In this document: piece after piece, positions 10,566-44,756 of the stretch
Position numbering within the stretch: position 1 is the stretch's first letter
How the letters are laid out: each line of letters starts with the position of its first letter
DNA from: Wenzhouxiangella sp. XN79A
GTDB taxonomy: Bacteria > Pseudomonadota > Gammaproteobacteria > Xanthomonadales > Wenzhouxiangellaceae
Direction of reading: 5' to 3'
NCBI RefSeq assembly: GCF_012272825.1
Contig: NZ_JAAWWS010000166.1
Coordinates: 11,601-75,600, forward strand
DNA length: 64,000 nucleotides
Notes under the pieces: generated by a model
The model's input: the letters and a program-made list of their open reading frames with translations, nothing else
Told to the model about the DNA's origin: nothing
Databases searched by the model: none
Translations under genes and position numbers: made by a program

Positions 10566-10761
10566 GAAGACCGGATCCCCTGCCTGCCAGGGGTCGAGTA
10601 TACGAAAGGCCTGGCTGCGACCGTCGGGCCCGGCGCGATCGGGATCCATCCGGCCCGCATCGAGCGTTCCCATGCGTGCTGGATCACAACGCGAACATTT
10701 TCATGGGTGCCGCATCACGACGTACGCGGTACCATTGAGGGCACTGTAGGGGCAGGCGCCG

Positions 10762-12603
10762 ATGACTCCACTCGAATACTACGTCGCCGATTGGCTGCAG
10801 CGCGAAGGCCGCGTACCCGATGATGCACTGACGCGGCTTCCGCCGGAAGTGGGCGCGGAGGTCGAACGCCGCGCCGAGCTCGAGTCCGTGGCCGAACGGC
10901 TTGCCGCCGAGCGGCCCGAACTGGCCGCGAAGCGGCGGATCGTGCTCGGCATCCAGGCCCGGATCCAGGCCCGCGGCGGCCAGCTCTCGACCAGCGAACG
11001 CGAGGACCTGATTCGACGCGCGCAGCCCACGGGCTGGGGCGCGCACGACGTCGACCGATTGATCGAGGCGGCGCTGCAGCGCATCCAGGCTCCCCCTCGA
11101 AACGCAGACGCGCCGAACGACGAGCCCGCTGCCGCGGCGACCGCCGGGGCCGCTTCACCGGCCCGGTCGATCGCCGCGGGCATTCGCGCGCCGGCTCTCG
11201 TCACCGTGTTCGGCGTAGTCAGCGCACTCGGCATGGTCGTGCTGGCCGGCGGCTACTGGTTGCTGCGCGACGACGCACCGGGCCCGGCCAGCGCGTCGGC
11301 CGGCCCTGGCGGCGGCGAACCGATGCCGGCCGCACAGGTCCGCACCGCGCAGCAGCTGCTGGGACGGCTGGGCCACCCGGTTCCGGAATCGGGCCGCTTC
11401 GATGCCGCGACCCGGGCCGCGCTGGATCGCGCGCTGCCGCAGTACGCCGGCCTGCAGGAGCTCCGGCCGTGGCTGGTCGACCAGCTGCAGACCGCGCTCG
11501 ATGAGCGCGATGATGCGGCCTGGACGGCCGCCCGTGAGACCGGCACCGTCGCTGCCGTGACCGATTACCTCGAGCGCTACCCCGAAGGACGCAACGTCGA
11601 CGCCGCGCGTGAACGAATGGTCTCGCTGGGCGCCGCCGAGCAGCGTGCCGACCTGGTGCGTGCGCTGCAGCAGGAGCTGAACCGTCTCGGACGGCGCGTG
11701 GCCGAAACCGGGGAACTCGACCCGGCCACCCGGGCGGCCATGGTCGGCTTTCCCGGCCCGATGCCCGGACAGACCCGCGCAAGCCTGGGCGCTGCGCTCG
11801 AGGCCCTGCGTGAACTGCGCCGCTGGCCGGTGCCGGACGGCGGCAGCTTCCGTGATTGCTCGACCTGCCCGGACATGGTCGCGATTCCGGCCGGTCGCTT
11901 CGTCATGGGCAGTCCGCCCGACGAGCGCATGCGCTCGCCCACCGAGGGCCCGCAACGCGAGGTCGACGTGGCGCGCTTCGCGCTTTCGCGCACCGAAGTC
12001 ACCCACGGCGAGTGGCTGGCCTGCGTCAACGACGGCGTCTGCCCGAGCCTGCCGATTCCGGAACAGGGCGACCTGCGCCGGCTGCCCGTCACGCACGTCG
12101 GCATGACCGATGCCCTGTTCTACTTCCGCTGGCTGCGCGACCGGACCGGCTTCGACTATCGACTGCCGACCGAAGCCGAATGGGAATACGCCGCCCGCGC
12201 CGGCACCACCACGCGCTATGCCACCGGCGAATGCATCACCTCCGACCAGGCCAACTTCGACGCCCGGCTGACGTCGGGCGACTGCCCGCGCGGCGACTAC
12301 CGCGGGGCGGTCCTGCCGGTCGCCAGCTTCGCGCCGAACGCGTTCGGCCTGTACGACATGCACGGCAACCTGCTCGAACCGGTCCGCGACTGCTGGAACA
12401 GCGACTACCAGGGCGCGCCCGACGACGGCAGCGCCTGGGAAGCCGGCGACTGCGGCCGCTCGCCGCTGCGTGGCGGATCGTGGAACAGCTCCGACCGGGA
12501 CCTGCGCTCGGCGGCCCGGATCCGGCCCAGCCCGATCGAGCGCAACCCGGAAAACGGCTTGCGGGTTGCCGTGTCGCTCGAGCCCGGGCCGGCCGCCCCC
12601 TGA
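10762..12603 (+). CDS. Membrane-anchored SUMF1/FGE-like protein with peptidoglycan-binding-like repeats
   Basis: 613 residues: a soluble N-terminal helical region (1-130), one membrane helix (about 142-172), two segments resembling peptidoglycan_binding_1 repeats (QQLLGRLGHPVPESGRFDAATRAAL near 195-220 and ELNRLGRRVAETGELDPATRAAM near 310), then a C-terminal SUMF1/formylglycine-generating-enzyme domain (about 365-605: MVAIPAGRFVMGS, RLPTEAEWEYAARAG, LYDMHGN, LRGGSWNSS). True FGEs carry a Cys pair in the RGGSW-x-C region; here it reads RGGSWNSSDRDLRSAAR with no Cys, so it is probably a non-catalytic SUMF1 fold. Peptides longer than 20 residues are not implied here as exact repeats. Confidence 0.8.
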   Translation: MTPLEYYVADWLQREGRVPDDALTRLPPEVGAEVERRAELESVAERLAAERPELAAKRRIVLGIQARIQARGGQLSTSEREDLIRRAQPTGWGAHDVDRLIEAALQRIQAPPRNADAPNDEPAAAATAGAASPARSIAAGIRAPALVTVFGVVSALGMVVLAGGYWLLRDDAPGPASASAGPGGGEPMPAAQVRTAQQLLGRLGHPVPESGRFDAATRAALDRALPQYAGLQELRPWLVDQLQTALDERDDAAWTAARETGTVAAVTDYLERYPEGRNVDAARERMVSLGAAEQRADLVRALQQELNRLGRRVAETGELDPATRAAMVGFPGPMPGQTRASLGAALEALRELRRWPVPDGGSFRDCSTCPDMVAIPAGRFVMGSPPDERMRSPTEGPQREVDVARFALSRTEVTHGEWLACVNDGVCPSLPIPEQGDLRRLPVTHVGMTDALFYFRWLRDRTGFDYRLPTEAEWEYAARAGTTTRYATGECITSDQANFDARLTSGDCPRGDYRGAVLPVASFAPNAFGLYDMHGNLLEPVRDCWNSDYQGAPDDGSAWEAGDCGRSPLRGGSWNSSDRDLRSAARIRPSPIERNPENGLRVAVSLEPGPAAP

Positions 12604-12689
12604 GCCCGATTTCGAGCCCGCGCCCGGGCATCGGGTCAAGCGTCCCGACCTGTCCGGCGGCGCCCGGCACCGCGCCGCTCGACCCGGCC

Positions 12690-13898
12690 TCAGGTCACCG
12701 GCGTCCGGGCCGGCGCGAATCCGGCATTGCCGTTGACGACCACCCGGTTGCGACCGGCCTGCTTGGCGCGGTACAGGGCCTGGTCGGCGCGCTGCAGCGC
12801 GGCATCGAACGGCTCGTCGGCCGGAGTCAAGGCCAGGCCGATGCTGACGGTGACCTGGATCGGGCCGTCCGGGCCGTCCAGCGACTGCCGCGCCAGCTCG
12901 GTGCGGAGCTGTTCGGCCAGCCGCTCGGCCTCGGCGAGCCCGGCATCCGGCCGCAGGAACAGGAATTCCTCGCCGCCCATGCGGGCCACCAGGTCGGCGG
13001 GCTCGGCGTTGTGCATCAGGCCCTCGCTCAGCGTGGCAAGCAGTCGATCGCCGATGGCATGGCCATAGCGGTCGTTGACGGCCTTGAACTCATCGGCGTC
13101 GATGACCAGCAGCGCCCGGCAGGATGCCGCCGCCGGGTCGGCCGCCCGCTCGGCCAGCGCTTCGCGCAGCCCGCGCCGGTTCAACAGGCCGGTCAGCCAG
13201 TCGCGACGCGCCTGCTCGGCGTGACGCGAGGTGATCTCGGCGTACTGCAGGGCGACGAAGCCGACGGCCAGCGACAGCATGAACAGCATCGAACCGACGC
13301 TGAACAGGATGCCGTGATAGCCGGCCGGCACCCGGGCGGTGGTCGGCAGCACCCCGCCGACACTGCCGTAGGCCCAGACCATCAAAACGGCATAGGCGAT
13401 CGTGATCCAGCGCAGCGCGCGGTAGATGCCCGCCATCTCGCGCCGCGGGGCGGCCGTGAGCAGGGCCTGCAGCGCCAGCAGGTAGACGACCTGCCCGCTG
13501 GCCGTGGTCAGGATCCGGAAGCGCGCATTGGGCATCCACCATTCCCAGAGCAGCAGGCTGGCCATCGAAACGCCGACGATCAGCGCCACCAGGCCGTGCC
13601 GGACCGGTCGGCCTGCGAAGCGCCAGAAACCGATCAGGATGAACGCCGAGCTCAGTCCGAAGCCAAGGTGGTTGATCACGACGGTGACCGATTCCAGCGG
13701 CAGGTAGCGGTAGGTGAACACCAGCAGTGCCAGGCCGTGTACGGCCAGGCCGGCCGCCCACCAGCGCGCGCCGGCCAGCCGCACCTGCCGGCTGCCGGTC
13801 CAGAGGATCAGGCCGGCCAGGGTCAACTGGATGATCGCCCGCGCCACCGCCAGGGTCGGAATGTCGATGTTCGGAAGGATCAGGCCGGAGAGATTCAT
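12690..13898 (-). CDS. Membrane diguanylate cyclase (GGDEF)
   Basis: 402 residues. The first 220 form about seven transmembrane helices (a MASE-like sensor of unknown ligand), followed by a GGDEF domain: RRDWLTGLLNRRGL, the metal-binding DADEFKAVND, and the active-site loop MGGEEF. The substrate GTP would be turned into c-di-GMP. The RxxD product-inhibition site expected five residues before the GGEEF motif is replaced by EPAD, so feedback control through the I-site is probably lost. It starts at the ATG at 13898. Confidence 0.9.
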   Translation of the reverse strand: MNLSGLILPNIDIPTLAVARAIIQLTLAGLILWTGSRQVRLAGARWWAAGLAVHGLALLVFTYRYLPLESVTVVINHLGFGLSSAFILIGFWRFAGRPVRHGLVALIVGVSMASLLLWEWWMPNARFRILTTASGQVVYLLALQALLTAAPRREMAGIYRALRWITIAYAVLMVWAYGSVGGVLPTTARVPAGYHGILFSVGSMLFMLSLAVGFVALQYAEITSRHAEQARRDWLTGLLNRRGLREALAERAADPAAASCRALLVIDADEFKAVNDRYGHAIGDRLLATLSEGLMHNAEPADLVARMGGEEFLFLRPDAGLAEAERLAEQLRTELARQSLDGPDGPIQVTVSIGLALTPADEPFDAALQRADQALYRAKQAGRNRVVVNGNAGFAPARTPVT

Positions 13899-31643: not shown

Positions 31644-32258
31644 TCAGACCGGCAGAGGCTCTCCGACCGACGCGGTCGCGGTGATCCGGAGCACGCCGCA
31701 CGCCGAGACGTCCATGTAGTCGCGAAGTGCGCCGAACGTCGAACGCGCCCCGGCAACGACCGCGTCCGGATCGACGGTGTCATCGGATTCCGCGGCATCG
31801 AGGAAGGCGCGGAAGCCAGGCCAGTGGACGGTTCGCATCGCGTAATAGGCCGTGCACAGCCGGGCGTGGGAACCGAATCGCTCGGTCAGACGCTTGCAGA
31901 TCAACCGCGCACCCAGGGTCGATCCTTCGAGCACGTAGATGGCGCCCAGACGTTCGGAATCGGTTCGCGGCAGCCAGCCATCGTAGGAAGACCGGACCCG
32001 GGGTCGGCGGGTCACGCCGGACAGGTAGGCGAGATCACGATCGACCCGGGGCAAGCGGGGGATGTAGCTGTACTTCGCGCTGTGGAACAAGGCAAGTTCC
32101 GGATCGAAACGGCAGAAGAAACAGGCCCAATGCCCGAGCAGCAGGGCGTATTCATCGAGATCGAAATCCGGGCGAAAGATCGATTTCAGCAACTCGGCTT
32201 CTTCGACGGCGCGGTGGTCGTCGACGGTAGCGTGGCGAAGCGTATCGGCAAGTCCCAT
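31644..32258 (-). CDS. Biliverdin-producing heme oxygenase
   Basis: 204-residue heme oxygenase that opens heme to biliverdin, CO and Fe2+, drawing electrons from a reductase or ferredoxin. His15 in TVDDHRAVE is the likely proximal heme ligand, and the distal-helix signature GAIYVLEGSTLGARLI is well kept, as in bacteriophytochrome-associated enzymes. It is the last gene of the bilin operon, 17 bases after the FAD reductase, with an AGGAG Shine-Dalgarno seven bases before its ATG. The isomer made (IX-alpha or other) cannot be told from sequence. Confidence 0.9.
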   Translation of the reverse strand: MGLADTLRHATVDDHRAVEEAELLKSIFRPDFDLDEYALLLGHWACFFCRFDPELALFHSAKYSYIPRLPRVDRDLAYLSGVTRRPRVRSSYDGWLPRTDSERLGAIYVLEGSTLGARLICKRLTERFGSHARLCTAYYAMRTVHWPGFRAFLDAAESDDTVDPDAVVAGARSTFGALRDYMDVSACGVLRITATASVGEPLPV

Positions 32259-32275
32259 GTTCGTTTCTCCTGGTT

Positions 32276-33463
32276 TCAGGCCGCCGGCTTCAGGACGGTC
32301 CGGACGATCTGGAGTTGGTCGGCTTCGGCAGAGCGGCCGATCAGGCGACTCGAGAGCATTTCTGCCGTTTCGGAGTCCATCCGATAGTTCACCATGCTGA
32401 CCCGCCGCACCAGGTCATCCTCGGTCAGGATGCAGATTCCCTGCTCCTTGGAATCCGACCAGTCCTCGCCGATCGCCTTCATCTCGGCGGCATTGCCGAC
32501 GCCGATCGATTCCAGGCGCATGTCCAGGAATTCCGAATACAGGAAGGAACTCGGCTTGAACTGCACGTCGTCACCGGCCAGGTTGCGGCCGGCGGCGGCT
32601 CCGGACCGGAGCGCATTCTCTTCGTGGCGAAAACTCGAGGCCTGCACTCCGAAGCGCGCGACATCCCCGCAGGCAAACACGTCCTCGAGCCCCTTGATCC
32701 GGAGCCGAGCGTCCACCGCCAGGCCGTGCCTGGAGACTTCCGGATCGTGCGAAACGAAGTCGACGCTCGGCTGCTGGCCGATGACCGGAATGACCACATC
32801 GGCATCGAGCTGCTTGCCGTCGCTGAGCTGGACCCGCCCGCCCGGCTCGAGCCGGATCGCACGGCGACCGGTAATGCACTCGATTCCGGCAGCCTGCAGC
32901 CGCGCCCGGATCCGTACAGCCAGCGGTTCCGACAGATAGCCGGTCAGCGGCGCCTCGGAGGAGATCACGAGTTTGACGCGGATTCCGTTGGCACTCAGGG
33001 AGCTGGCCAGCTCCACGCCGAGCAGACCGCCACCGATGACCACGGCCGATCCTCCCGCCGCCAGTTTCTGTCGGACGCGACGGAAATCGGCGAGCGAATT
33101 GAAGTACACCGCTTCGGCGCAATCGCCCGGAAGCCGGCGGGGCTGTAGACCGGTGGCGATCAGCAACTGCTCGTAGCGCACTTTCTCTCCGGATGAAAGG
33201 GTCAGCAGATGCCGATCGAAGTCGGCTTCCGTGACCCGCGTCGCCGGGTGATACTCAACGCCGAACCGGGCCGGGTTGTAGAAACAATCGGAAACGGCCA
33301 TGCCTTTCCACAGCTGCTTGCTCAAAGGCGGCTTGCGGACCGGCATGTCCGACTGATCGGACAGCATCATGATCGTGGACACCGTGTCCCGGGAGCGGAA
33401 CGACTTGACGGCGGCCATTGCCGCCATCCCGCCACCGATTACAACGAGGTCATGAAATATCAT
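32276..33463 (-). CDS. FAD/NAD(P)H-dependent reductase (AIF/ferredoxin-reductase type)
   Basis: 395-residue pyridine nucleotide-disulfide oxidoreductase-type flavoprotein with FAD motif VVIGGGMAAMAA at the N-terminus, NAD(P)H motif VVIGGGLLGVELASSL (about 140-160), and VFACGDVARFG near 275. It has no redox CxxC. Its family includes putidaredoxin/rubredoxin reductases that feed [2Fe-2S] proteins, so it probably reduces the operon's ferredoxin for the heme oxygenase and bilin reductase. The ATG at 33463 is used; it overlaps the end of the phosphatase gene by 14 bases. Confidence 0.82.
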   Translation of the reverse strand: MIFHDLVVIGGGMAAMAAVKSFRSRDTVSTIMMLSDQSDMPVRKPPLSKQLWKGMAVSDCFYNPARFGVEYHPATRVTEADFDRHLLTLSSGEKVRYEQLLIATGLQPRRLPGDCAEAVYFNSLADFRRVRQKLAAGGSAVVIGGGLLGVELASSLSANGIRVKLVISSEAPLTGYLSEPLAVRIRARLQAAGIECITGRRAIRLEPGGRVQLSDGKQLDADVVIPVIGQQPSVDFVSHDPEVSRHGLAVDARLRIKGLEDVFACGDVARFGVQASSFRHEENALRSGAAAGRNLAGDDVQFKPSSFLYSEFLDMRLESIGVGNAAEMKAIGEDWSDSKEQGICILTEDDLVRRVSMVNYRMDSETAEMLSSRLIGRSAEADQLQIVRTVLKPAA

Positions 33464-33971
33464 TATCGAAGCCCCTGTCTTGATTCCACGTCGATTCGAT
33501 CCACAACAACGCCGCCAGTGCCAACCTGGTGAGCCGGAGCTCGTCGTTCGTCCGGGCCACGGCCGCCCAGGCACTCAGGGGATCGAGCCTCCGAGCGACC
33601 ATCAGCCCGGCGGCGGCGACAAGCGGGGATCGGCTGAGACCGAGATGACAGAACACCACGACGCGCTCGCCCTGCTCGAGTGAACGGACCAACGCCCGCA
33701 CCGCTCGCAGAAGATTGGCGCGAAGCACCGGCGTGGAGTGCTCGAGAAAATCCCGGGCGCCGAGCTGCTCTCGACCGTCCCACGGGTCCGATGCGGAGAA
33801 AGGATCGGCCAGCCGGAAGACCATGCCTTCGATTTCGATCGGAGTCTCGTCGCGATCGAGAAGATCGGACGCACCGACACCGCACAGACTGATCCAGCGA
33901 TTGAAGCCCTCGCGCTGCCAACCTCGAAACGCTTCGCTATCCGGCAGAGGTGACACGGTCACCGCGTTCAC
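33450..33971 (-). CDS. Cys-based dual-specificity-type phosphatase
   Basis: 173 residues with GTG start at 33971, favoured by GAGGG eight bases upstream and an 11-base gap from the previous gene. The signature CHLGLSRSP gives catalytic Cys108-x5-Arg114 on a P-loop, as in DSP/PTP enzymes; the residue before Cys is Phe rather than the usual His. Asp56 or Asp62 (LADPFSASDPW) could be the general acid. In an operon with a Ser/Thr kinase it is likely to reverse that phosphorylation. Weak similarity means the substrate class is uncertain. Confidence 0.75.
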   Translation of the reverse strand: MNAVTVSPLPDSEAFRGWQREGFNRWISLCGVGASDLLDRDETPIEIEGMVFRLADPFSASDPWDGREQLGARDFLEHSTPVLRANLLRAVRALVRSLEQGERVVVFCHLGLSRSPLVAAAGLMVARRLDPLSAWAAVARTNDELRLTRLALAALLWIESTWNQDRGFDNDIS

Positions 33972-33982
33972 CGCGCCGGCCC

Positions 33983-34594
33983 TCACGCGGCGTGGCTCCG
34001 CGGCGACCGGACGTAGCCCTCGAATTCGTCGAGCACGTCGAGACAGTCCGCGTCGAGCCGGCCGCCGTGATCGGCACCGGACGGATCGAAAAAGAAGAGC
34101 CCCGCCCAACTCGTTGCATCCAGCATCTGCATCTGCGCGAGCAACTGAGCCTTGGACGGCAGCGCGAACGGGACCGGGTCACTATCGGCAAGCAGGATGG
34201 AGAATCGGTCGACCATCTGGAGCGCGTAGGCGAACCGACTGATCTCGGCCAGGTGCAACAGCACGACGATGCGTTGATACGGCACATCGATAGACCGGAG
34301 AAGCGACAGTGCACCGGCGCTCGACTCCGGCGGAACCGCCGGACGGGAACCGAGCACGACCGGATTGCGCATGCCATCGAAGACTTCCCCGAGGCGATGG
34401 ATGCGCTGCGCACGCCCGAGCAGGCCGGCCACGCCGAAGCGCGCGATTCCCTGCTGATCGAAGACCGGGGCAAGCACCGAGCTTGCGCTGAGCTCGATGA
34501 CCAGCGAACTGCCGTCGTCGACCACACCGAGGGCATCGAGATGACGGACGGCAAGCGGATTCGTGTACAGAATGCATTCGATCGAATTTCTCAT
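33983..34594 (-). CDS. Unknown bilin-operon protein, 203 aa
   Basis: I recognise no family. The 203-residue protein is mixed alpha/beta, with no signal peptide or membrane helix. The N-terminal half has strand-helix alternation (SIECILYTNPLAVRHLDALG, SLVIELSASSVLAPVF), the middle a segment rich in Arg/Leu helix (RIVVLLHLAEISRFAYALQM), and the end an acidic helix. Its ATG overlaps the kinase stop (ATGA), so it is translated with the kinase and may be its partner or regulator. Confidence 0.55.
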   Translation of the reverse strand: MRNSIECILYTNPLAVRHLDALGVVDDGSSLVIELSASSVLAPVFDQQGIARFGVAGLLGRAQRIHRLGEVFDGMRNPVVLGSRPAVPPESSAGALSLLRSIDVPYQRIVVLLHLAEISRFAYALQMVDRFSILLADSDPVPFALPSKAQLLAQMQMLDATSWAGLFFFDPSGADHGGRLDADCLDVLDEFEGYVRSPRSHAA

Positions 34595-36231
34595 GGACGG
34601 ACCTCACCTTCTTGCGGTTGATCGGGCTCGCCGGTACTGGGCTCGATCGAACGCCTCTGACGTGGACGGAGCCGGAGCGGAGACAGCCATTGCCGTCGGA
34701 CCCGCCCGGTTTCGGAAAAGGAATAGAGTCGGACCTGGCCGGATTGAAGCCAGGCAATGCAGCCGTTTCGCGTCAGCGATACGTTTCGAGTGCCGGGATC
34801 CAGCGCGATCCGCTGGCGACAGATGCCGTTCTCGATCGTCTGCGCTTCGAACGACACCGGCCGCTGCACGCTGCGCAGCAGCAAGCGAAGCGAGCCGTCC
34901 TGCGAAACTCGCAATCCCTCGGCCATGCCGTCGAGGTCACGCGACCAGCGCACGACGAGATTCCGGTCTCGGCAGACCAGTCGATCCTGCAGGTTGCCCT
35001 CGATCACATAACAGCGGTCCGTCGTCAGCGCGATCAGGTCGCTGTTGACGAACCCTTCGAGTCGCGTCCGCGCGATATCGGCGCTGCCGCGCGAGGCGCA
35101 GAACAGCCAGTTGTTGCTCAGCCAGGCCTCGCCGTCCTCTGCAACGGCAATCGCGTCGGGCACGTGCCGCAGCCAGCGGACATGGCTCAGCCGGTCGAAC
35201 TCGACGCACCACTGCCACAGGTCGGAGCCCTGAACGAAGTACAGTTCGTCGCCATGCCAGATCGGCGATACGCTCGAGCACGATACGGAGCCGATGGTGC
35301 GGCCCGTGGCCTCACGGACCACGAGATTGCATCCGGCGTGGAACGCCACAAAGCGGCCGTCGTCGCTGGACAGGACGGTGTCGAAAGGGCCACGATGCGA
35401 GCGCGCATGCCGCTTCACCAGGCCTGCCGGAACGACCGTCGCTGATCGCGGCAATACGGACCGATCGTCGCTTGCGCCCTTCATCAGCAACGCCAGCGCT
35501 TCACTGGCGTGCTCGGGCCGATTCCGTTCGTCGTTCTGGAGCAGACGGGACAGCAGGTTGCGCAGCGCCAGGCAGGGCACGCCGGACAATTCGGGAATCG
35601 TGTAGCGCGCCTCGCGATAGATCGCAGAGGGCATGCCACGGTTCGGCACGCTGCCGCGCAGCGCTTCCAGCAGGACAATCCCCAGCGAAAACAGATCGGA
35701 ACGAAGCGACGGGTGGCCGTCGACCGATTCCGGAGCCTCGTACGCCGGAGATGCCGAACGCCATTTCTGCTGCTCGACTTCCTGGAAATACGCGCTGCTG
35801 CCGAAGTCGGCGAGAAAGAACCTCAGTGAGCTGCCGTCTCTACGAACGAGGATATTCTCGGGCTTCAAGTCGCTATGGAGCATCCGCTGCGCATGCAGGC
35901 AACGCAACGCAACCATCAGATCGTGCGCCAGCCGCTTGACCAGGTCCGGAGACCAGATCGATCGCCGTCGAAGCCACTTTCGCAGGCTGCCGGAGGAGAA
36001 CCACGGGTAGATGAGCGCACAACGCGTGTTATCGATGAACACGGTATCGAGCGGCGCGACGATCTGGTCGCGGACCGGAAGAGCGAACACGTTGAGTTCC
36101 CGACGGTAGCGGTTGCCATCGACCAGCTTGATGAAGACCTTGTTGCGATCGTTGTTGTCGAAGGCGACGTACACGTTGTCGTTCGGGCCGCCCCGGATCG
36201 GACGGATTCCGGAGTACGCGCCACCGAGCAT
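34591..36231 (-). CDS. Ser/Thr protein kinase with propeller-like C-terminal domain
   Basis: 546 residues (ATG at 36231; an in-frame GTG at 36255 would overlap the V4R gene by 20 bases). The kinase has the catalytic Lys35 (VFIKLVD), HSDLKPEN with Asp121 and Asn126, ADFGSS with Asp142, and SPAYEAPE. The glycine loop (RPIRGGPNDNV) is loose. The last 230 residues are strand-rich repeats (VREATGRTIGSVSC, LVCRDRNLVVRWSRDL) that look like a quinoprotein/WD40 propeller and may read out a partner. No membrane helix: a cytosolic kinase, unlike the one at 24676. I recall that the cyanobacterial V4R/ferredoxin cluster also carries a Ser/Thr kinase (SpkG). Confidence 0.85.
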   Translation of the reverse strand: MLGGAYSGIRPIRGGPNDNVYVAFDNNDRNKVFIKLVDGNRYRRELNVFALPVRDQIVAPLDTVFIDNTRCALIYPWFSSGSLRKWLRRRSIWSPDLVKRLAHDLMVALRCLHAQRMLHSDLKPENILVRRDGSSLRFFLADFGSSAYFQEVEQQKWRSASPAYEAPESVDGHPSLRSDLFSLGIVLLEALRGSVPNRGMPSAIYREARYTIPELSGVPCLALRNLLSRLLQNDERNRPEHASEALALLMKGASDDRSVLPRSATVVPAGLVKRHARSHRGPFDTVLSSDDGRFVAFHAGCNLVVREATGRTIGSVSCSSVSPIWHGDELYFVQGSDLWQWCVEFDRLSHVRWLRHVPDAIAVAEDGEAWLSNNWLFCASRGSADIARTRLEGFVNSDLIALTTDRCYVIEGNLQDRLVCRDRNLVVRWSRDLDGMAEGLRVSQDGSLRLLLRSVQRPVSFEAQTIENGICRQRIALDPGTRNVSLTRNGCIAWLQSGQVRLYSFSETGRVRRQWLSPLRLRPRQRRSIEPSTGEPDQPQEGEVRP

Positions 36232-36235
36232 GGTT

Positions 36236-36910
36236 TCAACGACAGAGGAATTCACAGATCTCGTCCGGTGGCGTCCGGTCGTCGACCATCGAGCGAATCT
36301 GGTCGATGCGTGCCGGTGCGGTGATGAGGAATTCGGTCTGCGGGGCACCCAGTAGCGGTGAGGCGATCTCGGCGTAGTCCAGGTCGCGACGGCTCATGGC
36401 CTCGAACATTCCGACCAGCATGCCGCCGACCATGTGATCCACGGGCTCGGCGAGGTCGCTGAGCGCGCGCGCAAAGATGCTGTTCTTGAAGGTCACGCGG
36501 ATCAGGCCTGCCGAGCGAGCCATCGATAAATCGAAATCGGCCCGTCCCCACCCATGAAGCTGATAGTACGACTCCAGCACGGAGAAGAACGACTGCACCG
36601 AAAGACGGTCGAGGCCTTGCGGCGCGATCTCGTTGACCTGCCGGTTCAGCGTCTTGGCGGTGCGCCGACCCCAGGTGAGCCCGGCGGTCTTCAGAATCAG
36701 CGACCAGGCCTCGCCGGTTTCATGCAGCAGCGCTTCATAGATGCCCCGTATGACATCCTCGGACAAATAGATGACGCGATATTCGGCATAGCCGCGAACC
36801 GTCCCTTCGTCGAGCGTGTAACAGAGCTGATCTTCACCGAAGATCCGCTGGAGGACCATTTCCGTAGCTTCGGTCTGAGTCGTTTCCTGAATGGGTGCAG
36901 GGCTGGACAT
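36236..36910 (-). CDS. V4R-like protein (divergent)
   Basis: 224-residue protein of the same general build as the V4R protein at 38319: N-terminal helices, then PVDHMVGGMLVGMFEAMSR as the V4R helix, a strand, and PQTEFLITAP for the terminal strand. The Cys residues that mark the usual V4R end pattern are missing (the segment reads IASPLLGAPQTEFL). V4R domains bind small molecules, including in BchJ-like and regulator proteins. It follows the globin after three bases. The call rests on arrangement and gene context more than strong identity. Confidence 0.6.
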   Translation of the reverse strand: MSSPAPIQETTQTEATEMVLQRIFGEDQLCYTLDEGTVRGYAEYRVIYLSEDVIRGIYEALLHETGEAWSLILKTAGLTWGRRTAKTLNRQVNEIAPQGLDRLSVQSFFSVLESYYQLHGWGRADFDLSMARSAGLIRVTFKNSIFARALSDLAEPVDHMVGGMLVGMFEAMSRRDLDYAEIASPLLGAPQTEFLITAPARIDQIRSMVDDRTPPDEICEFLCR

Positions 36911-36913
36911 GGA

Positions 36914-37504
36914 TCAATCCCCGGTAAGAATTTCGCGAACGATTTCGACATGCGGCTTGAGCAGAAGGTAGTGCGGCTCGTCGAGCGATTGCTGGTAGTT
37001 ACGATCCATGAGGAGATAGGTCTCGTAGAGCGACTGCAACCCGTCCGGCAGGCCGTTGATGCGTTCGGCATCTTCATTGCTGCCGAACAGAACGCTCTCC
37101 TTCGGTTTGACCCGCCCCGGAAAATTGAAGGCCTGGAGAATGGTCTTGAGCCAGAACAGCAGCTTGTCCTTGTACCATTGATTGTCGTTCATCAACATGG
37201 CCTGAATGGCGTAGGTGCTTACGTTGGTCGCATCACGAACGCACTTCTCCGGTGCCAGTTTGTGCTTCTCGGCGTACGGGTAGACCTCGAAGATCCGGTT
37301 GATCGCATCGCTGACTACGTCGGCTTCCACCGCATAGGCGGCTTTTGCGGCATCCGCCCGCTCCGCCCAGTCCGGAAGAAGGCGTCGATAGATCGATAGT
37401 TCGTCTTCCGTCAGATGGCGGGCTTCGGCATCCTTGAATATCCGACGGAGTTCGTCGGGAAGTTCGGGTCGGGCAGTGTCGACCACTGCTGCATTGGCAC
37501 TCAT
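36914..37504 (-). CDS. Phycobiliprotein-like globin (BBAG-type, bilin-biosynthesis-associated)
   Basis: 196-residue all-helical protein. The segment EKCVRDATNVSTYAIQAML, with Cys88, Arg90 and Asp91, matches the phycobiliprotein C-x-R-D helix that holds bilin Cys84, followed by Trp110-Tyr111 and LLFWLKTIL like the next phycobiliprotein helix. LTEDELSIYRRLLPDW and AINRIFEVYPYAEKH correspond to the earlier helices. I infer a bilin-binding globin that is a relative of, not a true, phycobiliprotein. Its start overlaps the preceding stop (ATGA). Covalent binding would need the Cys and a lyase or self-attachment. Confidence 0.75.
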   Translation of the reverse strand: MSANAAVVDTARPELPDELRRIFKDAEARHLTEDELSIYRRLLPDWAERADAAKAAYAVEADVVSDAINRIFEVYPYAEKHKLAPEKCVRDATNVSTYAIQAMLMNDNQWYKDKLLFWLKTILQAFNFPGRVKPKESVLFGSNEDAERINGLPDGLQSLYETYLLMDRNYQQSLDEPHYLLLKPHVEIVREILTGD

Positions 37505-38316
37505 TCCTTGCCTCCTTCACTACGGCGGTTTTCGTTCTCGGAGCTTCGGTCCACGGCATCGTCGGTTGCTGCAGGCACCCGCTCCCGTTCACGCAGCTCG
37601 ACCACTCGCCGGACGTGGTCCGGAACCTCGCCGCCATCCGGGTCGACCGAGAAGCGCTCGCCCGGAGCGCCGTCGGCCGGATCCGCCGGATCGGATTCCG
37701 CCGTCGGGTCGTCGGCATGGGCGTCCGTGTCACCATCCCAGTTCAGGTTCTCGAAGAAATCCTGCGCGTCATCCTGCGCGTCGGATTTCCGTTCGTTCAT
37801 CGATCGCTCGACCGCCGATCGTTCGCTCATGCTTGGCTCCTCCTGCTTCGTTCCCGCGCCGTCCCAGGGCATGTCGCTAAGGAACTCCGCCGCGCCCTTC
37901 TCCACTTCATGACGCGATGCCTCACCGCCGACGTTCGCGCTTTCGGCATCCGTCGGCGAGCGGGGTGCCTCGCCTGGTTCCCAGGGCATTTCGGCAAACA
38001 GCTCCTCTGCCGTCTGATCGAATAGCGCGTCGGCCTCAGGATCGTCGGCCCGGCGTGGCTCCGGCGCCGCAGCTGTCGCTTTCGATGCAGGCCCGGCGAT
38101 CGCCACATCCGCATTCGTCGCCTCGGCTTTGTCCTCGATGCCGATGGCGTCAACGCCACCGGCCCCTACTTCCGAGCCGTCGACCGACGACGAGTGGACC
38201 GTGATGGGCTCGTAGAGCTCCAGTTCGTCGACCTCCTTCAACCCACGCACCTTCAGCGCCTTTCGCACCGTGGCCAGCGTGCCTCTCAACAGTCGAGCGT
38301 TCATGTCTTGGTTCAT
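37501..38316 (-). CDS. Acidic disordered protein with three Trp short motifs
   Basis: 271 residues, low-complexity and acidic apart from a short N-terminal basic helix (RLLRGTLATVRKALKVRG). Three copies of one motif lie in the disordered part: EELFAEMPWE (Trp112), EFLSDMPWD (Trp151) and DFFENLNWD (Trp193), i.e. acidic-(L/F)-(F/L)-x-x-(M/L)-(P/N)-W-acidic. No enzyme domain is seen. Such spaced motifs usually dock one partner several times, so this may be a scaffold or linker for V4R or globin proteins. It sits between them, two bases after the V4R gene and overlapping the globin start. Confidence 0.7.
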   Translation of the reverse strand: MNQDMNARLLRGTLATVRKALKVRGLKEVDELELYEPITVHSSSVDGSEVGAGGVDAIGIEDKAEATNADVAIAGPASKATAAAPEPRRADDPEADALFDQTAEELFAEMPWEPGEAPRSPTDAESANVGGEASRHEVEKGAAEFLSDMPWDGAGTKQEEPSMSERSAVERSMNERKSDAQDDAQDFFENLNWDGDTDAHADDPTAESDPADPADGAPGERFSVDPDGGEVPDHVRRVVELRERERVPAATDDAVDRSSENENRRSEGGKE

Positions 38317-38318
38317 GC

Positions 38319-38981
38319 CTAGTCCTCGATCTTTTCGAGAATTTCCTTGGCCGAAGCCCCTTCACTGCGCCAGAACTCCGCGGCGTTGACCTTCTTTTCC
38401 TCGCCGACGAGGAACTTGCAGACGTCGCTGCCCATGGAATAGCACTGCACCTCGATGCTCTGCAGGTCGGTGCGATGAAAGAAGCTGAAGGCCCCGGCGA
38501 ACAATCCGGCGTACATGTGGCACACCGGCTTACCGACGATCTGCATCGACTGGGCCACCGCCGAATTCCTGATCTCGATGACGGTGAAGTCCCGCTTCTT
38601 GAACTCCAGATCGAGCCGCCAGGCCCCAAAGCCCATGATGGTGAGCGGCCACCACCAGCATTCCCAGACGAACTTGGGATTCATCTGCCAGATTTCGCGC
38701 TTTCCGCCGCCGAATTCCTGACGCATCCGAGCAGCGAAGCGCTTCATGTCTTCCAGACCCCAAGCGATTCCGCACCGATACATCAGCAAACCGCTGGAGG
38801 CGCCTACTTCTTCCTCGATCCCGAGGTGCAGTCCGACCATGAATGCTTCGGTCACTTTCGCCGCGCGCTGACCGTCCCGAAGGAAGATCTCGCCGGTCTT
38901 CGGATTGGATCGGAAGAACTCATCGGGCACGTAGTAGTTGTGGTAGCCCGCGTATCCGCCGATCGCCGTATCGATTGACAT
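38319..38981 (-). CDS. V4R domain protein
   Basis: 220 residues. The last 70 form a V4R (4-vinyl reductase) domain: PVCHMYAGLFAGAFSFF, then EVQCYSMGSDVCKFLVG, with Cys154, Cys180 and Cys188, close to the family's C-x-G-x-x-C-x-F end. The first 150 residues hold an alpha/beta region with Trp-rich YWW-like WECWWWPLTI. The ATG at 38981 follows GGAG in the ferredoxin's stop region; the two genes are 7 bases apart. Family members bind tetrapyrrole intermediates or hydrocarbons; a bilin or precursor is the sensible guess here. Confidence 0.78.
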   Translation of the reverse strand: MSIDTAIGGYAGYHNYYVPDEFFRSNPKTGEIFLRDGQRAAKVTEAFMVGLHLGIEEEVGASSGLLMYRCGIAWGLEDMKRFAARMRQEFGGGKREIWQMNPKFVWECWWWPLTIMGFGAWRLDLEFKKRDFTVIEIRNSAVAQSMQIVGKPVCHMYAGLFAGAFSFFHRTDLQSIEVQCYSMGSDVCKFLVGEEKKVNAAEFWRSEGASAKEILEKIED

Positions 38982-38988
38982 GGTCAGG

Positions 38989-39453
38989 TCACTCCTGTTC
39001 GACAAGGACACTGAAATCCATGTCCTTGAGTTTCATGATTTGCGTTCGAATGATGATCTTGTTGGCTTCCACCAGGACCTGCCCGGTCCGGGGGTGGAGA
39101 ATCGGCACGCTGGTCCGTTTGCCGACCTGGGTCTCGAGGTCCTGAAACGACTCGACGTACAACCCGTCGGGCAGTTCGAGGTCTACCCCACCACCCTGCA
39201 CCTTGCACTGACAGGCAAGTCGACTGTTTTCCTGTGCGCCCGTCAGGATCGACAGAGTCATTTCTTCGCGATTCGTCGGCGCCGACAGACCTTCGCTGCC
39301 CGAGCGGACATAGACATGACAAGTGGCACACAGCCCTCGGCCCCCGCAGAGTTTCTTGACCTGGACATTGGCCCCGATCAGGACATCGAGGAGGGACTGA
39401 TCTTCGTTGGCCGGGACCTTTCGGCCCTGGATCGTTACCTCAGGCATGCTCAT
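38989..39453 (-). CDS. [2Fe-2S] ferredoxin with C-terminal extension
   Basis: 154 residues. The plant/adrenodoxin-type cluster ligands are Cys36, Cys42, Cys45 and Cys81 (KLCGGRGLCATCHVYV and RLACQC). An extra ~50 residues after the ferredoxin fold (VPILHPRTGQVLVEANKII) are unusual and may dock a partner. It starts at the ATG at 39453 inside the end of the giant gene; another ATG at 39447 is equally possible. It would pass electrons from the FAD reductase to the bilin reductase and heme oxygenase. Confidence 0.85.
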   Translation of the reverse strand: MSMPEVTIQGRKVPANEDQSLLDVLIGANVQVKKLCGGRGLCATCHVYVRSGSEGLSAPTNREEMTLSILTGAQENSRLACQCKVQGGGVDLELPDGLYVESFQDLETQVGKRTSVPILHPRTGQVLVEANKIIIRTQIMKLKDMDFSVLVEQE

Positions 39454-42400
39454 GGCCTCCCGTCGGCGGGCTCAGCAGTGCGAGCGCGACCGGCTCACAG
39501 AACGCATGGACGTTTTTGGGAAGGTGGCTGCGCAGCATCTTCCGGAGTCGGCGGACTTCGGCCGGGTCCTCGATACGAGGAATCCGGCACGTTCCGCCTG
39601 CACCGTCGCGAGTGCCGGCAGTCGGAACGGTCGAGATCCTTCCCATCAGGGCCAGCATCGCGAGGACATGGACCAGCGTCAGCGAATCCAGCGGGGAGGT
39701 GGCCGTCGATGTCCGGTTCAGTCTGGTGCTCCAGCCGCCGGCTTCCTGCATCGCTTCGATCCATCGCGCGCCATGGCTCGACAGCCTGGCGGCCAGCCAT
39801 GCCTGGGCCACTGCACTGGACCGCTTTTCGGCAGCCTCTCGCTCCGTCGATGACTGCCTGTAGATCGAGGCATCGATTGTCTCGGCAAAGCGCTGAACGT
39901 CGTCGAAACTCCAGTCGGCCAGGGGTCGTGCACAGAGTTGTACGAGCGCAGATCGCTGACCGAAGTCATCCCCGCGCGCTACCGCGAACGCGTAATCCCG
40001 CGCCGATGCGCGCACCGCTTCGATGCTGTGCTCGGCAATCTTCGGCACCGAGCGCTTCAACAGACCGCCGCGAAGAGCGTTCGGATCTGCGCTGGACGCG
40101 GAATGCAATGCGGCCCGGAGCAGATTCATCTGTGATTTCACGGTCGTCTCGTCGGGCAGCGGCCAGTCGTTGAGCTGCGATACGTCGATGAAGGATTGGT
40201 GCGCCATGCCGAACGTGCGACGGGACGCAACGACGAAATGTTGCCAGAGACGCTGCTCGCCACGGACGGCTCGACCCCGACACCAACCGCGGACGTCGGA
40301 CTCGACGGAATCGAGCGCATTAAGCTGCTGCCGTGCGACCAGCGCCTTGCCGATCTCCGTCTGACAGGCGATCAACTCCGGCAGGAGGCGCTCGTCCAAT
40401 GCCTCGCGGAGCCGCTTGATCAAAGCAGCGGACGACGATTTCCAGGTCTCCGGTGGCAAGCCGGCCACCGTCGGGGTGGCGTCGACCAGCGTTTGGCAGA
40501 GTTCGGCACGCCCGCCCCGCCAATCGCCGAGGCTCGCCGCCACGACCATTCCACCCAGGAACGAACGCCACTCGGCCTCACTGGCCTTGTCTTCGGTGAA
40601 CAGGTGCTCCTCGGCTTGCAGGATTCGTTCGGCGAAAACCCGGCAGTTGGAGAGATGCGATGCCGCCTGGCCGAGGTGCGAAGTCCAACCGACAACCGCC
40701 GCCTGGCATTCGTCGGGAACCCTTGCCGAAGTTTCCTTCGCCAGGGCCGCGGCGAACCGGACCGGAAAGTCGGGATCGCCGCCTTCGATCGGCAGGACGC
40801 TGGCCAGCCAGTAGCGCGGCAATTCCAGCGCGATCAGCGGTTCCGTCTCGCTCGCCAGGAGATCTCCCATATGCCGCACCGAGTCGACCAGGGCGTTCGG
40901 CAGCGCGGCCGGAAGGCTGCCGGCAATTCCGGCCGCGTCCGCCGCTGCGCTCAGTGCTCTGCGGCCGAGCAAGCCGGCATCGTCGCTCCAGCATCGTCCG
41001 ATCGTGATGCGGCGAGCGATCGCGCGCAGTTCGCCGAGCAGCTGAATCCACAGCGCTGCCGCAGGCGCCTCCAACTCGGCCGCCAGTTTCCCTTCGAGTT
41101 GCTGCAGCTCTTCGGCCACGATGGAGAAGCCGCGCGCGCCGATCGCCGAGCCGACGATGGGCAGGATGTCCTGCACGGCGATCTTGAAATCACCGTGCCG
41201 ATCCAGGGCGGCCATCCAGGCCGATTGCCAATCGGGCGCCTCGGCGTCGTTGAATCGCGCGAGAAGATGCTGCACGGCATGCTGGAAGGGTTCCGAGGCA
41301 CCGCTGGAGTCGCCGATCGGCGGCGTCGCCAGGGCGCGGTCGGGCACGGCGCTCCTGCTGGCCGACGCGGCCCGCGTGCCGAGGCCCAGCAGGCTGTGGA
41401 AGAACTGGGCGATTCCTCTCTGCTGCTCGGCCGAGAGATTGGCCTGAAGCGCATCGGTCAGGGACTTCCAGCAATCGGCTTGTGCAGGAAAATCATGCCG
41501 GAGCAACCAGTGGACCTCGGGGACGATCCAGATCTGCCACTCCTCGTCCACGCGTGGCGTCTTGTTGCCCGGCAATCGGGCCAGCAAGGTGATGATCCGT
41601 CGAAACCGCTGACGCGCCCGCTCATCGGTCCCGGCAAGTTCTGCGGCCAGTTCGTTCTGCATCGTCCAGAGGCGCAGGACGGTCGACTCGTTCATGCCGC
41701 GGTCGATCATCGCCGCGACGTCTTCGCGGTCGAGATTCAAGGAAGACGCGACCCGTTCGACAATTCCCGATTCGAAGAACTCGACGACGGTTTCGGGCCG
41801 GGTCCGGCCCGCCACGACATCGTCGCTGGCGAATTCCACCAGGCCCGGGCCGCTGACCTCGCGTTCGGCGCCAAGCGCCCGGTCGATGTACTCGGCTGCC
41901 AGGGGAGCCCAGTCCATGGACACCGCCGCCCAGACCTCCCGAAAGTCCGCTGCACCGGCGCTGCGCGCGACCTCGAACTGGGACAGCGCGCGCAGCACAC
42001 CGTGCAGACGAGCTCCGGCCGTGGACGACAGCGGTTGATCGATCCGGCTCAATTGAGCCGCGATTCTCTGGGTGCTGCGCCAGATCGGCCGCTCGCTTTC
42101 GCTGCCGGCCAGGAGCGCCGCGTAACGCCGGAAGTTCTGCTCGGCGTCGGCCGATTGATCGGCCGCCGTAACCGAGCGGGCGATCACGTTCATCAGCTGT
42201 TGCAGCGTGCGGGTGGCATCTTCGGTCGGTAGGCGTTCACTGACTTCAGCCGCGATGGTGCTGGCAAAGCCGGCCGATTCGCGGTCTGCAGCGCCTCTCC
42301 ATGCGGCCAGCTCGCGCACGTCCTCGAGCAGCAGACAGAGGCGCTCTGCGACATCGTGCAGCCAGTCGAGCTCGTAGCGTTCGTGACCCGGTCGGATCTT

Positions 42401-43432
42401 GTTCAGCAAGGTGTCGAAGAATTCGCGCAGCTCGTCGATATCGAGATCGACGGTCTGCGTCAACCGCTCGGGGTCGACGGCATGAATGAACGCGGCTCGA
42501 TGGGTTCGCGAATCGCCGATCAGCGTCAGAACCAGAATCCAGTCGACGAGATCGTCGTCGAGCATACGGAGTGCACGAGCGTGCACCGTTCGAAGGTTGC
42601 GGACGAACGCCAAGCGATGACCGCTCCGCGCCAGGCCGCGGAACAGGGCGAAGGTACGCTCGTCGAGACTGCCTCCGACCCGTTCTTCGATCGCGAAGGT
42701 AAGCTGGCGGCTCAGCATGCGCCATTCTTCCGCAGTAAGCTGCGCGGCCTGGTCGACCGAATGGACCAGACGGCGGAAGAACTCGAAATCGAGCGCGTGG
42801 TGCCGAAGCGGGCGCAGCCGCGCCCAGCCGTTCAACCAGGCGTTCAGCTCCTCGCCGATCGCATCGGCATCCTCTCGTTCGCTCAGACCGGCTTCCGAGA
42901 GCGCTTGCGCAACGATCGCTTCGGGCTCACGCAGCTTTCTGCGGGCGGTCAGACGGTCGACCGCTCCGCGCACGTCCCGGAGAGCAGCGTGCAGAAGCAT
43001 CGATTGCTGACGTGTGAGCACCGCACCCAGGCGGCCCTGGACCATGTTCAGCGCAAGCACTGCCGGACCGGGCGGCAGTGCTTCGAGCAGGCGCTCCGCG
43101 GCGGGCATCAGGTCGAGTCCACCGGGTCGGCGCCCCGAGACGCGTGCCTCGATTTCGTCCAGGCACTCCCGGAGCATCTCCGTGGCCTTGCGGAGATCGA
43201 CGTCACCGATCTTCGCCTGCAGCGCTTCGTTGCGACTGAACTCGATGACGAGCTTGCCGCGTTCTTCGGCCAGCACAGCGCTGAGTCCTGCGCCTTCACG
43301 GTCGAGAAGATAGGTCTCGCAGCAGGACAGGGCGTGGGGTTCGAACAGACGGGCCGCTTTCTTGTCGTGCGCGGCGGCCGATGACTTCGTCGCCGCGGCG
43401 GCAGCATTCTGAAGGGTGGCGTCGAGGTTCAT
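39440..43432 (-). CDS. Giant helical bilin-operon protein of unknown fold
   Basis: 1330 residues and the largest gene of the operon. It is predicted by eye to be helical nearly throughout, with no signal peptide, membrane helix or catalytic motif I recognise. A disordered Ser/Ala/Pro linker near residues 690-715 and another near 1270 split it into parts. No CxRD globin motif or V4R pattern was found in it. It starts at 43432, overlapping the bilin reductase stop (ATGA), and ends overlapping the ferredoxin start, so its amount is linked to both. A scaffold for the assembly is the simplest idea, but this is inference. Confidence 0.65.
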   Translation of the reverse strand: MNLDATLQNAAAAATKSSAAAHDKKAARLFEPHALSCCETYLLDREGAGLSAVLAEERGKLVIEFSRNEALQAKIGDVDLRKATEMLRECLDEIEARVSGRRPGGLDLMPAAERLLEALPPGPAVLALNMVQGRLGAVLTRQQSMLLHAALRDVRGAVDRLTARRKLREPEAIVAQALSEAGLSEREDADAIGEELNAWLNGWARLRPLRHHALDFEFFRRLVHSVDQAAQLTAEEWRMLSRQLTFAIEERVGGSLDERTFALFRGLARSGHRLAFVRNLRTVHARALRMLDDDLVDWILVLTLIGDSRTHRAAFIHAVDPERLTQTVDLDIDELREFFDTLLNKIRPGHERYELDWLHDVAERLCLLLEDVRELAAWRGAADRESAGFASTIAAEVSERLPTEDATRTLQQLMNVIARSVTAADQSADAEQNFRRYAALLAGSESERPIWRSTQRIAAQLSRIDQPLSSTAGARLHGVLRALSQFEVARSAGAADFREVWAAVSMDWAPLAAEYIDRALGAEREVSGPGLVEFASDDVVAGRTRPETVVEFFESGIVERVASSLNLDREDVAAMIDRGMNESTVLRLWTMQNELAAELAGTDERARQRFRRIITLLARLPGNKTPRVDEEWQIWIVPEVHWLLRHDFPAQADCWKSLTDALQANLSAEQQRGIAQFFHSLLGLGTRAASASRSAVPDRALATPPIGDSSGASEPFQHAVQHLLARFNDAEAPDWQSAWMAALDRHGDFKIAVQDILPIVGSAIGARGFSIVAEELQQLEGKLAAELEAPAAALWIQLLGELRAIARRITIGRCWSDDAGLLGRRALSAAADAAGIAGSLPAALPNALVDSVRHMGDLLASETEPLIALELPRYWLASVLPIEGGDPDFPVRFAAALAKETSARVPDECQAAVVGWTSHLGQAASHLSNCRVFAERILQAEEHLFTEDKASEAEWRSFLGGMVVAASLGDWRGGRAELCQTLVDATPTVAGLPPETWKSSSAALIKRLREALDERLLPELIACQTEIGKALVARQQLNALDSVESDVRGWCRGRAVRGEQRLWQHFVVASRRTFGMAHQSFIDVSQLNDWPLPDETTVKSQMNLLRAALHSASSADPNALRGGLLKRSVPKIAEHSIEAVRASARDYAFAVARGDDFGQRSALVQLCARPLADWSFDDVQRFAETIDASIYRQSSTEREAAEKRSSAVAQAWLAARLSSHGARWIEAMQEAGGWSTRLNRTSTATSPLDSLTLVHVLAMLALMGRISTVPTAGTRDGAGGTCRIPRIEDPAEVRRLRKMLRSHLPKNVHAFCEPVALALLSPPTGGHEHA

Positions 43433-44202
43433 AGCGCCATGCTCCGTGCTGCGACCACGGACCCATCGGCCGGGACGCTGCGCCCGTCGACGCGAGCGGG
43501 CCCGAAGTGCCAATCCTTCAGGAGTTCATCGGCGGCCTTCTGACCCATCTTGACGCCGAGCAATCGGTGGCCGGGCGAATTCTCGTAGTGGTGGAATTTG
43601 TACCGTTCGACATCTTCGTGGTCGGACCCCGAACGTCCAGCGGACAGGCTCGGATTCCAGAACGATCGGATCGTTGTGGCGAGATAGTCGTTGAAGGCCT
43701 GGCGCAGCTCCGACAGACGGGATACCTCGCAGCTTCCGTACAGCACCCATGGCATGGCGATCTCTTCGAACCACGCGGGGCGTTCACGGTTTTCCGGGAA
43801 GCGTGCCCGCCAGTATTCGCCGAGTGCGCCGAATTCACGGTCGAGACGATCGACCAGCGCCGGTTGCCGGCCGCAGACTTCGACATCGAGAATCAGCGCA
43901 TGCACCCGGTCACCGAACACGACCCATTCGGCGGCGAATACCGGAAAGACCTCGGGGCTCGCCGTGGGGTAGACCATGACCGTGGCGATGTCCATGGCCG
44001 CGCCGCGGATTCGAGCATACCGACCGCACAGCCGGTCGCCGGCGATCCGCCACCCCTCGCTTTCGATCTCGAAATGCTTCGAGCCGATCGCCAGCTGCTG
44101 GTGACGGAATCGAGCCGGACGCGTTTCGTCTTCCAGATCGAACTCGGACATCTGTCCGAGGAAATCGGACCGCGTCCAGGCGACGTAATCGGAGTGCTGC
44201 AT
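43429..44202 (-). CDS. Ferredoxin-dependent bilin reductase (pre-PcyA-like)
   Basis: 257-residue FDBR. VMVYPTASPEVFPVFAAEW, then VHALILDVEV (Asp106), WFEEIAMPWVLY, and the late HRLLGVKMGQKAADELL with HFGP follow the order of PcyA: by my alignment Asp106 equals catalytic Asp105 of PcyA, whereas the PcyA His88 position (…LHCVMFP) reads ATVMVYP, with no His. It would reduce biliverdin by two-electron steps from ferredoxin; the product cannot be told. The ATG at 44202 is supported by AAGGGGG eight bases upstream. It is the first gene of the operon. Confidence 0.78.
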   Translation of the reverse strand: MQHSDYVAWTRSDFLGQMSEFDLEDETRPARFRHQQLAIGSKHFEIESEGWRIAGDRLCGRYARIRGAAMDIATVMVYPTASPEVFPVFAAEWVVFGDRVHALILDVEVCGRQPALVDRLDREFGALGEYWRARFPENRERPAWFEEIAMPWVLYGSCEVSRLSELRQAFNDYLATTIRSFWNPSLSAGRSGSDHEDVERYKFHHYENSPGHRLLGVKMGQKAADELLKDWHFGPARVDGRSVPADGSVVAARSMAL

Positions 44203-44756
44203 TCGACGAACCCCCTTGGTTGCTGTGAAGGCAGAAGAGTCTTTGGATGTGAATGATTTCTCCAGAAATCGTGATGTTGAAGTGAACGACACACCGGAGC
44301 CTGTTCTTCGAACTGCAACCTCGCTGCAATGTTCGTATCGATCGCGCTTGACGGCAGCGTGACGCTGATCACCTTTTCTGGATGTCAGCCGCCAACTCCC
44401 GCCCAAGCACCGTCCAGAACCGAGACATCTCGACCGACCCTGCGATATGCTCGAGACTATGGGTACGCTACAGTTGAAACGATGAATAGCGTGAACCCGA
44501 AACGACCGCTTCACTGCTCAACCGGGGTCCATCAACGGCTCAGCTCGTCTTCACGACGTCTCGATGGCTCCGCTGTCGCTTCGTGAATGAAGCAACCGGA
44601 TACATTCGGGTCGCTACGATCGCCGGTTTTCGATCGGACTGAACGCGGTGTGCCGGCGCCCGTATCGTTGAACTCGCGCACTCGGTCCAGGCCCGCGCAA
44701 CCACGATGGAAAAACATCATCGGGACCGACAACGGGCGCATGCAGGAGCACATCCA
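44203..44756. promoter_or_regulatory. Divergent intergenic region of the bilin operon
   Basis: The 554 bases separate the bilin operon (leftward) and the TPR-GGDEF gene (rightward). The leftward half has distinctly lower GC than the genome average here and holds the perfect palindrome at 44255-44270. I see no convincing paired -35/-10 for either direction, and short frames in this stretch have no recognisable domain. The operon promoter should lie between 44203 and about 44350. Confidence 0.5.
44255..44270. promoter_or_regulatory. 16-bp perfect palindrome, candidate operator
   Basis: GATTTCT-CC-AGAAATC is a perfect inverted repeat with a 2-base centre. It lies about 53 bases upstream of the bilin reductase start, where a repressor or activator of the whole operon would be expected to bind. 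No regulator gene is in the operon, so the partner protein is not known. Confidence 0.4.

Follow-up and report, generated by a model that had tools for sequence, protein, structure and literature searches.

The large helical protein encoded in the bilin operon of Wenzhouxiangella sp. XN79A, here called BIG, appears from its distribution to be neither a core bilin enzyme nor an obligate scaffold. Our best explanation, held at a probability of about 0.4, sees BIG as an all-helical accessory protein, soluble and cytoplasmic, that acts as a non-catalytic docking scaffold in some of the proteobacterial pre-1-type BBAG clusters.

BIG lies on the minus strand of the 64,000-nucleotide stretch of DNA that was analysed (the window); the preliminary description had given no strand, and the plus-strand frame over the same positions is interrupted by stops. 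GC content by codon position (0.71/0.50/0.77) is similar to that of the neighbouring genes, and 60 mononucleotide shuffles of the 1330-codon gene produced no stop-free run longer than 320 codons. The same number of shuffles of a 1357-codon homologue with 48% GC produced none longer than 203. Codon-position GC and the shuffle control together indicate that the frame is coding beyond chance, and the open reading frame first noted is real. A 678-codon open reading frame on the opposite strand (40196-42232) is read as a shadow of the high GC. The start that we prefer, as a matter of judgement, is the ATG that overlaps the stop of the upstream gene for ferredoxin-dependent bilin reductase (FDBR) as ATGA; a TTG at 43513 is also open and could give a longer protein. 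At its other end BIG overlaps the downstream ferredoxin gene by 14 bases, with GGGAGG directly ahead of the ferredoxin ATG. The operon coupling claimed for BIG is thus borne out, as is its share of the operon, put at a third: it takes 4.0 kb of the roughly 12.9 kb from 31644 to 44514.

Features of the bilin operon, in minus-strand gene order, with parts of BIG listed beneath it
Feature	Position in window	Strand	Basis
FDBR (ferredoxin-dependent bilin reductase)	43429..44514	-	PF05996 E 2.6e-12; start codon uncertain
BIG (1330-residue helical protein)	39440..43432	-	ATG at 43432, stop ends at 39440
Putative BIG unit, first copy (residues 107-375)	42308..43114	-	profile self-alignment
Putative BIG unit, second copy (residues 755-1037)	40322..41170	-	profile self-alignment
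BIG residues 635-637 (WWW site)	41522..41530	-	four-member alignment
2Fe-2S ferredoxin-type protein	38989..39453	-	PF00111 E 1.2e-11; 37-40% identity to Acaryochloris cluster proteins
V4R-A	38319..39011	-	PF02830 E 4.9e-16; 39-40% identity to Acaryochloris cluster V4R
Motif protein (LFAEMPW, FLSDMPW, FFENLNW; low complexity)	37501..38316	-	motif scan
BBAG globin, CVRD motif	36914..37504	-	PF00502 E 4.4e-9; alignment
V4R-B, V4R-like	36236..36910	-	27% identity to second V4R of Acaryochloris clusters
Ser/Thr protein kinase, C-terminal extension	34591..36348	-	PF00069 E 6.9e-27
U205, conserved cluster protein	33983..34594	-	matches in proteobacterial loci
Dual-specificity-phosphatase-like	33450..34109	-	PF00782 E 6e-7, 29.8 bits, cut-off 33.5
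FAD/NAD(P)-dependent oxidoreductase, ferredoxin-reductase-like	32276..33574	-	PF07992 E 1e-43
Heme oxygenase	31644..32258	-	PF01126 E 3.5e-10

Judged by its gene content, the operon is a pre-1-type BBAG cluster, a known kind (PMC10151467): FDBR, the Fe-S protein, two V4R proteins and a CxRD globin are all present. In the BBAG alignment C88, R90 and D91 are invariant. The labels V4R-A and V4R-B are ours, assigned from Pfam and alignment; V4R-B has no Pfam match of its own. U205 has no Pfam family above cut-off and was matched in seven of nine proteobacterial loci, with L080 and L083 cut off before it. The FDBR gene stands first here but closes the row at the opposite end, behind U205, in L013, L014, L015, L081, L082 and L084. 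The globin of the methanotroph locus L081 (12619-13191) reads AHRD where the others have CxRD, and its chromophore Cys is seemingly missing. Kinase and phosphatase-like genes occur together in one bilin cluster.

The relatives of BIG were not reached with BIG itself. Used as a query, it matched one of 101 genomes (its own), and it had no match in phages or plasmids; none of 18 stretches of genome contigs was confirmed. The route to relatives was the conserved V4R, through a profile seeded by two Acaryochloris plasmid copies, which found 50 loci (3 proteobacterial, 46 with cyanobacterial titles and 1 titled Gracilibacteria). Further searches with this profile at other taxon ranks returned the seed genome only (1/399, 1/81, 1/9 and 1/397). 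Within the class, an FDBR family search matched three genomes out of 369, one of them the window's. Of the other two, G342 has an FDBR locus (L008) with no BBAG-type cluster among its open reading frames, and G464 has three FDBR-family matches on three contigs (L003, L006, L007). In viral contigs none of 33 was confirmed.

In four of the ten proteobacterial clusters found, the ferredoxin gene has a gene of the size of BIG immediately on its 5′ side: the window, a Lysobacterales MAG (L013, 1282 codons), a Comamonadaceae MAG (L014, 1357 codons) and a Rubrivivax MAG (L015, 1314 codons). These four are all of the non-methanotroph proteobacterial clusters found. Their BIG proteins share 21-25% pairwise identity. 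In a four-sequence blastp comparison, L014 matched L015 at 2e-46 and L013 matched the window at 1.6e-7, while the best E between the window's BIG and L015 alone, 0.31, is non-significant. The four-member profile recovered the three relatives in their own genomes at E 0, which shows only that a second copy did not come up, since the members sit in the profile. Over the same four clusters identity is 67-80% for V4R-A, 38-55% for BBAG and 25-37% for FDBR, and we conclude from these comparisons that BIG evolves fast while its V4R neighbour stays conserved. FDBR precedes BIG only in the window; conservation thus extends to adjacency with the ferredoxin gene and not to the reductase coupling.

Many clusters do without BIG. 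A marker search reached an order of methanotrophs in which 6 of 301 genomes have the V4R; we infer that the order is Methylococcales, from the marker and from the BBAG-type cluster that Methylovulum is reported to carry (PMC10151467). These clusters keep the Fe-S and V4R genes (6/6) and the globin (5/6, L080 being cut off), and FDBR was seen in L081, L082 and L084. Beside the Fe-S gene, in the slot of BIG, L080, L081, L082, L084 and L085 show a divergent gene for heme oxygenase; L083 spans only 1.5 kb on that side. The BIG profile matched none of 326 open reading frames of at least 60 codons in the six loci at E ≤ 1, and in the six whole genomes it gave a single match of 75 positions (E 0.0073, G1091), rejected below. 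Seven of seven cyanobacterial-type genomes were negative. Among 49 cyanobacterial-type loci (47 from the V4R search and two plasmids), ten open reading frames have at least 900 codons and none matches BIG (best E 0.31), with the proviso that a profile of four members could miss a very distant relative. This absence, from all six cluster-bearing methanotroph genomes as well as the cyanobacterial-type loci, points to a clade-limited accessory and an optional gene. The preliminary description had proposed a scaffold for the bilin enzymes; as a core role this fails by the refuting condition that the description itself had set, because the core genes persist where BIG is missing, and only an accessory scaffold is possible.

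A tree was built from the Fe-S protein and V4R-A, and 14 of the 49 cyanobacterial-type loci served as its outgroup (the other 35 were omitted by choice or had no second match). It did not place the four BIG-bearing clusters in one clade (2 changes), and a single clade was not rejected (p-AU 0.454). A single gain and a gain followed by loss in methanotrophs are therefore indistinguishable.

BIG had been described as belonging to no recognised family, and this stands: nothing exceeded cut-off in Pfam, NCBIfam, PHROGs, PADLOC or PDB sequences. Matches to Frankia_peptide (E 0.012; 16.3 bits, cut-off 48), PRK11525 (E 0.14) and keratin (E 0.064), COA8 and other sub-threshold matches on the internal units, and the G1091 match were seen; every one of these was rejected as weak and not common to BIG members. 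The literature searched on BBAG clusters yielded no report of a large protein or of the aromatic motif of the motif protein; within it, BBAG terms came together only in PMC10151467 and PMC11480375. To that extent BIG is, as first supposed, undescribed.

The profile of BIG aligned with itself suggests that the protein consists of two diverged copies of a helical unit of about 270 residues, some 650 residues apart. Residues 755-1037 match 107-375 with a score of 37.3, against a maximum of 20.2 from 40 window-shuffled profiles. The N segment matches the C segment at E 0.0008, and the remaining five segment pairs are unlike. Member by member, support for the duplication is thin: the C-unit profile found the N segment of the window at 6e-5 and those of the other three members at 0.07-0.12, and the N-unit profile found the C segment of L014 at 4e-4 and the other three at 0.06-0.17. 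The idea of a large repeat protein therefore survives as one internal duplication and not as a regular array, as profile self-comparison gave no short-period repeat.

The four-member alignment rests on such low identity (21-25%) that misalignment is possible. Its invariant Trp residues are 237, 635, 955 and 997, and E952, W955, R956 and W997, all in the second unit, are the same in all four members. Around W635 three of the four read WWW and the window's BIG reads WIV. A likeness between V4R-A and BIG around this site scored exactly the shuffle maximum (23.1 and 23.1) and is a curiosity. No alignment column has Cys in at least three of the four members, His reaches three of four only at 33 and 1309, outside both units, and neither residue has an invariant column. 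This fits a protein of structure and binding surface better than one of catalysis or covalent pigment. No membrane segment is evident, with one 19-residue window above 1.6 on the Kyte-Doolittle scale.

These features lead us to favour the docking scaffold. It is the best supported reading because of the conserved slot beside the ferredoxin gene, the fast evolution, the lack of conserved Cys or His of a catalytic type, the soluble helices and the duplication. The gene, its synteny and homology, the duplication, the helical make-up, the lack of an evident membrane segment and the lack of conserved Cys are what the analysis shows; from there we infer binding partners and a docking role. BIG would be made alongside the ferredoxin-type protein and would hold it beside the bilin reductase, the V4R-globin complex or both, and electrons and bilin could then be passed on locally. 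Since the Synechocystis proteins Slr0144-Slr0149 are reported to associate physically (PMC9880817), a corresponding complex may exist for BIG to dock to.

Structure prediction with Foldseek, one of the checks first proposed for BIG, did not name a fold. AlphaFold2, given four sequences as input, modelled BIG in two parts with mean pLDDT of 44.6 (residues 1-743) and 47.1 (647-1330), best at about 168-377 in the N portion and about 886-1040 in the C portion. Both part-models are almost only helix, which at this low confidence agrees with the earlier label of a helical protein, and by our reading the order of helices over the two units may be alike in both. Foldseek returned nothing at E ≤ 0.001, and a missing fold match says little because the models are poor and long. 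Phage tape-measure proteins topped the viral structure library (E 0.0077, prob 0.41), which we read as generic long helices.

It is rather unlikely that BIG is instead an irregular alpha-solenoid adaptor (HEAT/ARM/TPR-like), acting as a chaperone when the globin or the Fe-S protein is assembled. The all-helical part-models suit such an adaptor, and solenoids (CAND1, karyopherins, AP2) are frequent among the weak structural matches of the C portion, the best of which, at E 0.029, is to a designed repeat protein. However, the models are poor, none of the four BIG members has a TPR, HEAT or ARM match at E ≤ 1, and the self-comparison lacks the short period.

The kinase and phosphatase-like genes raise the thought that the cluster is a signalling module and that BIG is a partner or target of this pair. 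They lie in the same operon and recur in relatives, with the phosphatase-like gene also in L013, L081, L082, L084 and L085. A PHY-domain match was found in 3 of the 10 cluster-bearing genomes, and none in that of the window, which is 99.97% complete; a phytochrome is thus not the likely consumer of bilin here, and the bilin probably serves the cluster itself. Both genes, however, also occur in methanotroph clusters that have no BIG, and the phosphatase was not found in the BIG-bearing L014 and L015, so we consider a signalling role for BIG unlikely.

Structural comparison of the units brings in the globins. In a second look with VIA-align 2, the modelled segment of the C unit (about BIG 918-1040) aligned with two globins: the one of photocobilin 8j2w, which binds biliverdin (Z 6.4, rmsd 3.5, 97 residues), and the one of syNOS 9q0y/9q15 (Z 5.8, rmsd 4.4, 114 residues). 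For the N portion syNOS headed the list (Z 6.7, rmsd 6.9, 142 residues); globin limits were taken from PMC10979010 for photocobilin and PMC12922734 for syNOS. The duplicated units might thus be degenerate globin-like modules (pseudoglobins), either holding bilin or heme by non-covalent contacts or packing against BBAG, making BIG a handler of tetrapyrroles. Yet these Z values fall in the tool's common range for helical models and stand among rows of unrelated proteins, and BopN ranks above the globins on the same C segment (Z 7.2, rmsd 4.5, 132 residues). None of the four members reaches the PF00502 cut-off; the best, L013 (14.0 bits, E 0.051), matches in another region. The BBAG and BIG profiles compare no better than shuffles, leaving a globin origin unsupported by sequence at this profile depth, and there is no invariant Cys or His. 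We therefore regard a pseudoglobin role as distinctly unlikely.

That BIG is a passenger gene with no bilin role, as its absence from most clusters and its very fast evolution might suggest, is improbable, because four clusters, assigned to different proteobacterial groups by record title or placement, share its slot and orientation beside the ferredoxin gene and keep it intact over about 1300 codons at 48-77% GC.

The candidate for a core scaffold is another protein of the cluster. Between V4R-A and the globin, nine of nine proteobacterial clusters tested (L013-L015, L081-L085 and the window; L080, the tenth, is cut off) encode a low-complexity protein with 1-6 copies of [FY]FxxLPW. The window's three copies fit a looser pattern only, which in 1000 shuffles per sequence averaged at most 0.01 copies and never exceeded one. 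For L013 and L015, with one copy apiece, the number of copies says less by itself. In L013 the motif slot (10673-12838) holds 721 residues that look like coiled coil, with a single YFQMLPW near the C end. In the corresponding position, 30 of the 49 cyanobacterial-type loci (such as L011 and L012) have a small open reading frame with 1-3 FFxxxxWxG-type motifs, a count made without a shuffle control, and 19 had none by that pattern. From this sequence pattern, we propose the motif-repeat protein, and not BIG, as the putative core scaffold. A bolder idea, just as improbable as the passenger gene, makes the two proteins scaffolds of one multivalent assembly that would array bilin-loaded globins, V4R and the Fe-S protein in bacteria that have no phycobilisomes. 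Of the two, the repeat protein would serve as general glue, its counterpart in cyanobacterial clusters lying where Slr0145 is encoded, and BIG would be a proteobacterial rod of duplicated, perhaps pseudoglobin, modules that enlarges the assembly. If this were true, the assembly would be a relative of the kind that gave rise to phycobilisomes.

The slr0144-slr0152 operon of Synechocystis resembles the window's cluster in its V4R, Fe-S and globin genes and in a Ser/Thr kinase gene, slr0152 (SpkG). It differs in being tied to photosystem assembly or repair, and BIG is absent from the cyanobacterial-type loci and genomes examined. It also has no FDBR or HO according to PMC10151467, which sets the neighbours slr0150-slr0152 aside. 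With photocobilins and other bilin-binding globins (PMC10979010) BIG may share a weak structural likeness over one modelled segment, but it has no sequence support for globin kinship. In the pre-1/BBAG gene cluster described by Rockwell, Martin and Lagarias in 2023, the text covered (PMC10151467) presents neither a protein of about 1300 residues nor a motif-repeat protein. Separating core parts, among them the motif-repeat protein, from optional ones such as BIG shows which components are the first to reconstitute experimentally, and for a natural comparison without BIG there are the clusters of methanotrophs. In its HO, FDBR, Fe-S protein, two V4R proteins and CxRD globin, all together in a proteobacterium, the cluster of that paper is the same as ours, and the proposal made there is that cyanobacterial bilin synthesis came from such BBAG clusters, which are also put forward as cousins of phycobiliproteins (PMC10151467).
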